A stretch of DNA of 64,000 nt from Dinghuibacter silviterrae (GTDB lineage Bacteria; Bacteroidota; Bacteroidia; Chitinophagales; Chitinophagaceae), in assembly GCF_004366355.1 (NCBI RefSeq), contig NZ_SODV01000001.1:1240001-1304000 (forward strand). Reading direction: 5' to 3'. Shown piece by piece: positions 56,900 through 58,881 of the stretch. The notes under the pieces are model-generated. The model saw only the letters and a program-made list of their open reading frames with translations, did no database searches and was not told the origin of the DNA. The stretch's first letter is position 1, and each line of letters starts with the position of its first letter. Made by a program: the position numbers and the translations under genes.

Positions 56900-56948
56900 A
56901 ATGCGCGGGGATGGGTTATATTTTTCGTATAACCCATCCCCGCGCATT
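56900..56948. promoter_or_regulatory. 21-bp perfect inverted repeat at the dehydrogenase promoter
   Basis: Arms 56900-56920 and 56928-56948 are exact reverse complements over 21 bp with a 7-nt loop TTTTTCG. The right arm ends on the first base of the -7 element TAATTTTG. It could be an operator covering the promoter or the rsmA terminator; it has no long U-tract in either direction. Confidence 0.6.
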
Positions 56949-56960: not shown

Positions 56961-57887
56961 ATGCGAAAAGTGATCATCACTGCCAAAAGCCACGAAATTC
57001 TCAGGGAAAAACTGCCCCAGCACGGGTACCAGGTTGACTACCGGCCCGACATCAGTTACGACGAGCTATTGCAATCGATACACGGTGTGGAAGGGTTGGT
57101 GGTGTCCACGCGTGTGCCCATCAACCAGGCGCTCCTGGAAGCCGGGACCGATTTACGCTGGATCGGCCGCCTGGGAAGCGGTATGGAGCTTATCGACGTG
57201 GATTTTGCCCATTCCCGGGGGATCCAGGTCGTCAGTAGTCCGGAGGGCAACTGCGATGCTGTGGGCGAACACGCCCTCGGGATGCTCCTGGGTCTGATGA
57301 ACCGGATCACCTGGAGTCACCATGAGGTGGCGGAGGGGCTTTGGAAAAGGGACCCCAACCGGGGTTGGGAATTGGGCGGAAAAACCGTTGGTATCGTCGG
57401 TTTTGGCCACACGGGTGCCGCCTTTGCGAAAAAGCTCGAAGGCTTCGACGTCACCATTTTGGCATACGACAAATTTAAGGCGGGTTTTGCCCGGGGCAAT
57501 ATCCGGGAGGCCAGCCTGGAGCAGGTCTGCAGGTATGCCGACGTCCTTAGTTTCCACGTCCCCCTTACCGTGGAAACCCGGTATATGGCCGATACGGCGC
57601 TTTTCCGGTCGCTGGGGCAAAAACCATACATCCTGAACACGTCCAGGGGGGAGGTGCTGAGGACGGCTGCACTGATCGAGGCACTCAAGGAAGGATGGGT
57701 GGCCGGTGCGGGCCTGGACGTCCTGGAAAATGAACGCCTGGAGACCTATTCTCCTGCTGAAAAAGAACAACTTCGATGGTTAACCAGCCAACCTAATGTG
57801 ATCGTAACCCCGCACATCGCGGGTTACAGCCACGAATCCTTTTTCAAAATGAGCCGGGTGATCCTGGAAAAATTGAATTTGGATTAG
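56961..57887 (+). CDS. D-2-hydroxyacid dehydrogenase (phosphoglycerate-dehydrogenase-like)
   Basis: A 308-residue NAD(P)-dependent oxidoreductase. The substrate-binding domain covers both ends and the Rossmann domain about 100-280 with VGIVGFGHTGAAFAKKL. Catalytic residues are visible as Arg in LNTSRGEVLRT, Glu in VLENERLETY and His in TPHIAGYSHE. It lacks the C-terminal ACT domain of full SerA, so the substrate could be 3-phosphoglycerate or another 2-hydroxy acid. The ATG at 56961 (MRKVIITAKSHEIL) is chosen over a start at 56901 inside the inverted repeat. Confidence 0.92.
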   Translation: MRKVIITAKSHEILREKLPQHGYQVDYRPDISYDELLQSIHGVEGLVVSTRVPINQALLEAGTDLRWIGRLGSGMELIDVDFAHSRGIQVVSSPEGNCDAVGEHALGMLLGLMNRITWSHHEVAEGLWKRDPNRGWELGGKTVGIVGFGHTGAAFAKKLEGFDVTILAYDKFKAGFARGNIREASLEQVCRYADVLSFHVPLTVETRYMADTALFRSLGQKPYILNTSRGEVLRTAALIEALKEGWVAGAGLDVLENERLETYSPAEKEQLRWLTSQPNVIVTPHIAGYSHESFFKMSRVILEKLNLD

Positions 57888-57894
57888 TAAGGTT

Positions 57895-57926
57895 TTTGGA
57901 GTATCTTGGATAAAACGGTATATTTG
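57895..57926 (+). promoter_or_regulatory. Consensus Bacteroidota promoter for greA
   Basis: TTTG at 57895-57898, a 20-bp spacer and TATATTTG at 57919-57926: both elements match the Bacteroidota primary-sigma consensus with correct spacing. Transcription would start near 57931, about 80 nt before the greA ATG. Confidence 0.7.
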
Positions 57927-57932
57927 CAGAAC

Positions 57933-57971
57933 ATGCAACGCTGCACCAACGAGTGGCGTTGTATTTTTTTT
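57933..57971 (+). terminator. Intrinsic terminator inside the greA leader
   Basis: ATGCAACGC (57933) pairs with GCGTTGTAT (57956), including one G-U pair; an inner CAC/GTG pair and the loop CAACGA complete it, followed by eight T residues (57964-57971). Because it lies after the promoter and before greA, it would stop part of greA transcription and release an RNA of about 40 nt. It may also end transcripts from the upstream dehydrogenase. Confidence 0.7.
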
Positions 57972-58011
57972 CACCCCCCACCAAGAAGGGGCGTTGTAAA
58001 AAGTGGACACT
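57972..58011 (+). promoter_or_regulatory. Second hairpin and competing repeat before greA
   Basis: CCCC (57976) can pair with GGGG (57988). GGCGTTGTA at 57990-57998 repeats the 3' arm of the terminator stem (57955-57963), so the 5' arm CAACGC could pair with either copy. This gives two exclusive structures, as in an attenuator. Confidence 0.5.
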
Positions 58012-58485
58012 ATGAGTGGGATTAACTATCTGACCAAGAATACGCTGGTCAATATGAAGGACGAGCTTACAAAGCTCAAAACTTCCGGAAGGGCGGAAAT
58101 CGCCCGGGCGATTTCCGAGGCGAGGGAGAAAGGTGACCTCAGGGAAAATGCAGAATATGATGCGGCCAAAGAAGCCCAGGGGTTGCATGAGGCAAAAATC
58201 GCCGAACTGGAAAACGCGATCGCCAATGCCCGAGTGGTCGAGGCCGACAGCATCGATACGTCAAAGGTCTCTATCCTGACAAAGGTGACGATGACCAATA
58301 TGGCTACTAAAAAGACCGTGACCTACCAGATCGTTTCCGAAAAGGAAGCGGATCTTAAAAGCGGTAAAATCTCCGTGACCTCCCCGATCGGGAAGGGGTT
58401 GCTGGGCAAGGCCGTGGGGGATGTGGCAGAAGTCACCGCGCCCAACGGCGTCATGAAGTTCAAGATCGACCACATCGGGATTTAA
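58012..58485 (+). CDS. greA: Transcription elongation factor GreA
   Basis: Rescues backtracked RNA polymerase by stimulating transcript cleavage through the secondary channel. The 157-residue length is typical. The N-terminal coiled coil (1-75) carries the acidic tip EKGDLRENAEYDAAKEAQG. The C-terminal FKBP-like domain has TYQIVSEKEADLKSGKISVTSPIGKGLLGK and ends KFKIDHIGI. The ATG at 58012 is used; a GTG 9 nt upstream is less likely. Its leader has a terminator and alternative structures. The HIT gene follows by 3 bp. Confidence 0.96.
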   Translation: MSGINYLTKNTLVNMKDELTKLKTSGRAEIARAISEAREKGDLRENAEYDAAKEAQGLHEAKIAELENAIANARVVEADSIDTSKVSILTKVTMTNMATKKTVTYQIVSEKEADLKSGKISVTSPIGKGLLGKAVGDVAEVTAPNGVMKFKIDHIGI

Positions 58486-58488
58486 GAC

Positions 58489-58881
58489 ATGACCATTTTC
58501 TCCAAGATCATCGCAGGGGAGATTCCCAGCTATGCCGTAGCGGAAAACGAACATTTCTTTGCATTTCTGGACATCTTCCCCCTGGTGGAGGGACACGTAT
58601 TGGTGGTCCCCAAAGTAGAGGTGGACAAGCTGTTCGACCTGCCGGACGACTACCTTTCCCGGATGCTTTTGTTTGCAAAGCCCATCGCGCGGGCGATAGA
58701 GGAGGTTTTTCCCTGCAACCGTTGCGGGCTGAGTGTCGTGGGGCTGGAAGTGCCCCATGCGCACCTGCACCTGATCCCCATCAACAGCGCGGATGACCTC
58801 AATTTTACAAGGGGGAAACTATCCGTGACACCGGAGGACCTGCGCCGCGCGCAAACCAAGATTGTGGAGGCGCTGGCGTAG
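58489..58881 (+). CDS. HIT-family nucleotide-binding hydrolase
   Basis: A 130-residue protein with the histidine triad HAHLHLIPI near residue 88 and the N-terminal pattern IFSKIIAGEIPSYAVAENEHFFAFLDIFPL typical of HINT-like proteins. It hydrolyses purine nucleoside phosphoramidates or dinucleotides such as diadenosine polyphosphates. It lies 3 bp after greA and is probably co-transcribed. It converges with ruvC, with stops 2 bp apart. Confidence 0.94.
   Translation: MTIFSKIIAGEIPSYAVAENEHFFAFLDIFPLVEGHVLVVPKVEVDKLFDLPDDYLSRMLLFAKPIARAIEEVFPCNRCGLSVVGLEVPHAHLHLIPINSADDLNFTRGKLSVTPEDLRRAQTKIVEALA

Follow-up and report, generated by a model that had tools for sequence, protein, structure and literature searches.

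In Escherichia coli, an intrinsic terminator in the 5' UTR of greA gives rise to the short GraL RNAs, and about one third of the transcripts get past this terminator as described in PMC6829880. GreA increases GraL and decreases read-through, for which catalytic GreA is required, and the sequence of GraL matters as well as its structure (PMC6829880). According to the same source, the sequence 5' of the GraL hairpin also matters, and the effect of GreA is present in vivo and absent in vitro (PMC6829880). As far as the open-access literature shows, E. coli is the only organism for which greA autoregulation via a leader terminator has been elucidated, and an extra factor is suspected there. The greA and rnk leaders described by Naville and Gautheret in 2010 each have a clear antiterminator, whereas none is conserved in the leaders examined here from Bacteroidota, a phylum that the main text of PMC2965389 does not mention. 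Structured 5' elements of Flavobacterium psychrophilum, likewise from Bacteroidota, were found by transcriptome mapping (PMC9723704); greA does not appear as a gene name in the main text of this study, and its Table S7 may list it. Among the open-access main texts listed, there is no recognisable report of a Bacteroidota greA leader, a scope outside which lie supplementary tables such as Table S7 of PMC9723704 and the UTR-derived RNAs of PMC7366714.

Here, we describe the greA leader found in the window, the whole stretch of 64,000 nt that was analysed, which sits in a 6.5-Mb genome. In outline, this leader appears to resemble the greA leaders of other phyla, minus their antiterminator. As in GraL, a hairpin of the intrinsic-terminator type is located on the sense strand between the greA promoter and the start codon, in the 5' UTR and near the promoter, and the GreA encoded downstream has both catalytic acidic residues. 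The short RNAs have 37–59 nt in E. coli (PMC6829880) and would have ~40 nt in the window, a length that is predicted only. The two systems differ in the type of promoter, in the onset of the hairpin, which is at +19 in E. coli (PMC6829880) and at about +4 in the window, and in the distance from the hairpin end to the ATG with 102 nt and 47 nt, respectively. While sequence 5' of the hairpin matters in GraL, it is nearly absent in the window leader, and by inspection the stem of GraL has no sequence likeness to that of the window leader. Common descent with lineage-specific stems and convergence with E. coli are equally possible.

Predicted promoter, hairpin and T tract upstream of greA

The greA gene of the window (58012–58485, forward strand) encodes 157 amino acids and matches NCBIfam TIGR01462, scoring 174 bits where 139 are required; D42 and E45 of the protein align with D41 and E44 of E. 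coli GreA. The promoter consensus of Bacteroidota consists of TAnnTTTG at -7 and TTTG near -33 (PMC7366714). Upstream of greA, the -7 element TATATTTG at 57919–57926 on the forward strand has the form TAnnTTTG, a motif that is enriched in greA leaders, and a possible -33 element TTTG is located at 57895–57898 on the same strand with a spacer of 20 nt. The predicted promoter hence carries both elements of the Bacteroidota primary-sigma consensus. A simple sigma-70 scan does not list the greA promoter of the window, which is of the Bacteroidota type.

The TTTG of the -7 box is followed after 6 nt by the hairpin of the putative leader terminator (57933–57964, forward strand; 12 pairs, loop of 8, ΔG −16.0), whose 12 continuous pairs include G-U and correspond to the 9+3 pairs noted earlier. 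A T8 tract at 57964–57971 (forward strand) marks the predicted 3' end of a leader RNA of ~40 nt. The last T and the start codon of greA (ATG at 58012) are separated by 40 nt, and this remainder of the 5' UTR (57972–58011, forward strand) contains no TAnnTTTG. The 3' arm of the terminator includes the 9-nt sequence GGCGTTGTA at 57955–57963, of which a second copy, judged incidental, lies at 57990–57998 on the forward strand. If transcription starts 4 nt after the -7 box, the start site would be at about 57930, the hairpin would begin at about +4 and the terminated RNA would have ~40 nt. Such a start site, termination in vivo and the efficiency of this termination are what we infer for the leader, whereas the order of its elements can be read directly. 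A previous sequence-only reading had described a promoter, then the hairpin, eight T and 40 nt to the ATG, and both copies of GGCGTTGTA; all of them were found again at the positions given above. Its prediction of an RNA of ~40 nt is likewise supported.

Taken by itself, the sequence of the window provides weak to moderate evidence, the hairpin being only mildly unusual. Folding of the 106 nt from 57925 to 58030 gave a z of −0.85 relative to shuffles, with 40 of 200 shuffles equal or better. When 57890–58011 was shuffled 1000 times, some terminator-like hairpin with ΔG ≤ −7 was obtained in 378 cases and a hairpin with ΔG ≤ −15.9 in 17. An Rfam search of 57600–58300 gave no family at gathering score (best 12.5 bits versus 40), and the sole match was at chance level (E 1.5) and on the other strand. 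Likewise, 20 loci with greA leaders had 0 Rfam matches.

Conservation of the leader hairpin in family and phylum

The conservation of the hairpin among greA leaders provides strong evidence from sequence comparison. In an unselected set of 60 genomes of the family, greA was found in 59 and the leaders were taken whatever their sequence. All 59 have a terminator 10–130 nt upstream of the ATG. GCGTT is present in the 3' arm in 58 leaders and is combined with AACGC in the 5' arm in 56, while just 5' of the hairpin the exact promoter motif TAnnTTTG is found in 44 and an exact or one-change motif in 55. In 40 of the family genomes a second terminator lies downstream of greA, no more than 150 nt away, and here we compared the leaders with these 3' terminators. 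Towards the end of the 3' arm, 83% of the leader pairs have an identical 6-mer in common versus 4.7% of the 3'-terminator pairs, and mean best-shift identity is 0.95 for leaders and 0.67 for 3' terminators. For 21 of 30 selected loci, the corresponding identities are 0.88 and 0.59. The 3' terminators, although they belong to the same genes, differ freely between genomes, so the leader stem is constrained in sequence and not only in pairing.

In an alignment of the 30 selected leaders (A1), a stem of 13 pairs is 94.8% paired, which drops to 31–56% if the partner is slid by 1–3 columns. Alignment cells changed on both sides number 38 versus 13.0 in shuffles, of which 0 of 500 reach 38; counted as pairs with a double change there is no excess, with 5 versus 4.2 in shuffles (176 of 500). 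Five core pairs are unchanged across the 30 leaders. This invariance of the core and of the T run is partly built in, because the pattern used to select A1 held most of the core plus the T run; the core was therefore retested in the 59 unselected genomes described above and the T run on leaders picked by their arms alone, where 31 of 32 leaders have a T run behind the arms versus 7% of random positions.

A covariance model (R1) was built from A1 and searched in the 60 family genomes. Matches just 5' of greA were obtained in 57 of 59 genomes, counting matches down to E 3.4e-4. At E ≤ 1e-6, 45 matches lie upstream of greA and one elsewhere. Eight of the 59 genomes are known to be in R1, and 49 of the other 51 were matched; some of the 19 named A1 loci may share species with further genomes of the 59. 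The two misses are G297, in which a long GCAACGC..GCGTTGC hairpin is present, and G018, in which the hairpin has diverged. In the own genome of the window, CAACGC..GCGTTG is found at 19 places, and R1 at E ≤ 0.01, searched with stricter filters that miss weak matches, recovers the greA leader only. A strong match away from greA (G306, E 5.2e-8) lies directly 3' of the stop codon of a gene which, from its translation, we take to be TonB-like, and resembles an ordinary 3' terminator.

GreA is present in all of the 296 genomes sampled from the phylum. We collected 220 loci, namely that of the window, 80 from contigs of named genomes, one from a congener and 138 from other genomes, the last being hand-picked from among the 296 genomes to span genera and families. 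The named-contig loci are the best 80 of at least 593, and among these Chitinophaga comes closest to the window by GreA. After removal of the truncated L133 and of 14 loci with identical last 90 nt, 205 leaders remained. Terminator-like hairpins were defined by ΔG ≤ −7 and 5 or more T in 8, and the same program also picks up the GraL terminator of E. coli. By this definition, 189 of the 205 leaders have a terminator-like hairpin within 200 nt upstream of the ATG. At 15–100 nt upstream, a hairpin is found in 183 of 205 greA leaders versus 67 of 256 control genes; 96 of 205 versus 3 of 256 also carry an exact TAnnTTTG just 5' of this hairpin, at a distance of −4 to 25 nt. If one change in TTTG is allowed, the motif accompanies the hairpin in 132 of the 185 leaders with a terminator at 15–110 nt and in 8 of the 67 terminator-bearing controls. 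The controls comprised 120 genes of the own genome and 136 genes of other genomes, the latter drawn from 20 stretches. They were obtained by simple ORF calling with approximate start codons and had to be preceded by an intergenic space of 100 nt or more, whereas no spacing rule was applied to greA leaders. Since the leaders share descent, their counts are not independent.

Counted by taxa, the terminator is present in 112 of 125 family-labelled genomes and in 42 of 49 families; the families without a call at 15–110 nt (f33, f37, f40, f42, f44, f46 and f48) are represented by one genome each. Terminator and promoter motif (one change allowed) occur together in 23 of the 49 families, and the promoter link is supported for those 23. 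Among the 20 leaders without a call at 15–110 nt, L025, L095 and L134 have a strong terminator at 113–134 nt and some others have a weaker hairpin. At the level of sequence, the comparison thus establishes that the hairpin upstream of greA is conserved within the family and across much of the phylum. Its conservation in relatives was one of the points on which the sequence-only reading had staked its interpretation, and the hairpin is kept (183 of 205 leaders in the phylum, 59 of 59 in the family). Attenuation of greA, as also proposed there, is the natural reading.

In the phylum sample, AACG in the 5' arm with CGTT in the 3' arm is seen in 53 of 185 leader hairpins and in 1 of 67 control terminators. 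This reach beyond the family of the window may reflect common descent; the stem cores differ in other families. Two hairpins with T runs, apparently tandem terminators, precede greA within 200 nt in L022, L028, L031, L060 (Mucilaginibacter), L094 and L096 (family f3).

The geometry of the leaders was examined in 100 leaders with the exact motif. In 75 of them, TTTG and the start of the hairpin are no more than 10 nt apart (median 6). The T tract ends at a median of 27 nt before the ATG, and the predicted leader RNA has 27–63 nt with a median of 41. When the full leader is folded, the hairpin dominates in 94 of the 100, its median pair probability being 0.9 or higher; in 4 this value is below 0.5. 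Both in the window, with its 6 nt, and in most of the 100 exact-motif leaders, little room is left ahead of the terminator for a sensing domain of the riboswitch or protein-binding kind. On the 3' side of the hairpin, no conserved competing structure was found in the 188 leaders tested for repeats and the 100 folded. Between terminator and ATG, TAnnTTTG occurs in 2 of 185 leaders. One of the two is the congener L082, in which the leader is longer and the motif, a possible second promoter by-passing the terminator, lies ~34 nt 5' of the greA ATG.

Probable attenuation of greA and competing explanations

Judged from its sequence, the window leader is probably a promoter-proximal transcription attenuator of greA, with feedback by GreA as the likely control. 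Transcription would start ~3 nt ahead of the hairpin and the first ~35 nt would fold as an intrinsic terminator, whereupon part of the polymerases would release an RNA of ~40 nt and the rest would continue into greA and the HIT gene behind it. Because there is no RNA sensor on the 5' side and no competing fold on the 3' side, the share of read-through would be set by the state of RNA polymerase, i.e. by pausing, backtracking and elongation factors. GreA itself is the obvious candidate regulator, and negative feedback, as in E. coli, the likely sign. We infer control of the window terminator by GreA from this analogy: the GraL precedent together with the conserved acidic residues of GreA makes negative feedback by GreA the most likely control. 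Our findings suggest that, as in E. coli, greA of Bacteroidota may be limited by the early ending of its own message.

A wider hypothesis is that such feedback operates throughout the phylum with the polymerase as sensor, where read-through, owing to the short distance between terminator and start site, reports backtracking, GreA alters it and the stem core is tuned to the GreA response rather than to pairing only. We put this forward tentatively, as possible rather than probable. If true, GraL would exemplify a design that is general among bacteria. A leader without sensor or antiterminator would also be a minimal system for asking how a transcript-cleavage factor alters intrinsic termination, and further RNAs of about 27–63 nt are predicted in many Bacteroidota.

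The main rival explanation is that the terminator merely reduces greA expression by a constant factor and shields the gene from upstream transcription without any regulation. All evidence for the terminator fits this as well, as does the lack of a sensor and of a conserved antiterminator. However, a weaker promoter would suffice for a fixed reduction, and yet much of the phylum has retained the arrangement, and the family also the sequence of the stem core. We consider this explanation unlikely, albeit the strongest competitor of attenuation with feedback by GreA.

It is much less probable that the hairpin belongs to the upstream gene as its terminator and that the greA promoter is located 5' of it through overlap. 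The upstream neighbour is in tandem in the window, where 45 nt separate the hairpin from the end of a hydroxyacid dehydrogenase gene at 57887, and likewise in 133 of 177 classified loci (28 of 205 were unclassifiable by the ORF rule), and a shared role is possible. However, the hairpin is present in 39 of 44 loci with divergent and 119 of 133 with tandem neighbours, or in 66 of 73 and 116 of 129, respectively, under a looser ORF rule. Since it is equally common in both arrangements, it is not merely the terminator of the neighbour, and as the whole story this explanation is rejected on both pairs of counts. In addition, the promoter motif lies 5' of the hairpin and is found 3' of it in only 2 of 185 leaders.

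We give equally little credit to a non-terminating 5' stem-loop by which the greA mRNA would be stabilised or its translation shaped. The location of the hairpin at the predicted 5' end would suit such a role, and so would the report that ribosomes of Bacteroidia do not recognise Shine-Dalgarno sequences (PMC9976891), whereas the T tract that directly follows the stem in nearly all leaders picked by arms alone (31 of 32) argues against it. Still less plausible is a leader RNA that acts mainly in trans as a small RNA, with greA being incidental. GraL of E. coli acts in trans too (PMC6829880), and the sequence of the stem core is under constraint; by inspection, however, the single-stranded 5' end and the loop vary among relatives and therefore no conserved seed is visible.

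The weakest explanation, and one we hardly credit at all, is an attenuator with alternating structures formed via the duplicated GGCGTTGTA arm: the 9-nt repeat is real, and for repeats of at least 7 nt the expected number among 188 leaders is as low as 2.29 (6 observed), but the 9-nt repeat is missing from the congener L082 and from every other leader examined, being confined to the window among 188 leaders of the phylum and 59 of the family, the forced alternative fold is 7.9 kcal/mol weaker (−17.5 versus −25.4 kcal/mol, pairing probability about 2e-6), and the second copy is transcribed only once the terminator can form. The duplicated arm was therefore rejected as an antiterminator, being unique to the window and energetically weak. 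With that, the interpretation of the sequence-only reading holds for promoter and terminator, for the predicted RNA of ~40 nt, for attenuation and for the likeness to GraL as a promoter-proximal terminator in the greA 5' UTR, and fails for the longer alternative pairing. A conserved switch is absent from these leaders as far as their sequences go.

Genes around the leader

A gene for a HIT-family (HinT-like) protein (58489–58881, forward strand; NCBIfam matches below their cut-offs) begins 3 nt past greA. It is probably on the greA transcript and would hence share its attenuation. Unlike this arrangement, 40 of the 59 family genomes have a terminator-like hairpin within 150 nt past greA.

On the other side of the leader, an inverted repeat at 56900–56948 with ~20 bp per arm and a loop of 5–7 is located between rsmA and the hydroxyacid dehydrogenase gene. 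Because a 14-mer of its arm has no other occurrence in the genome, the element resembles a strong terminator of rsmA rather than a member of a repeat family.
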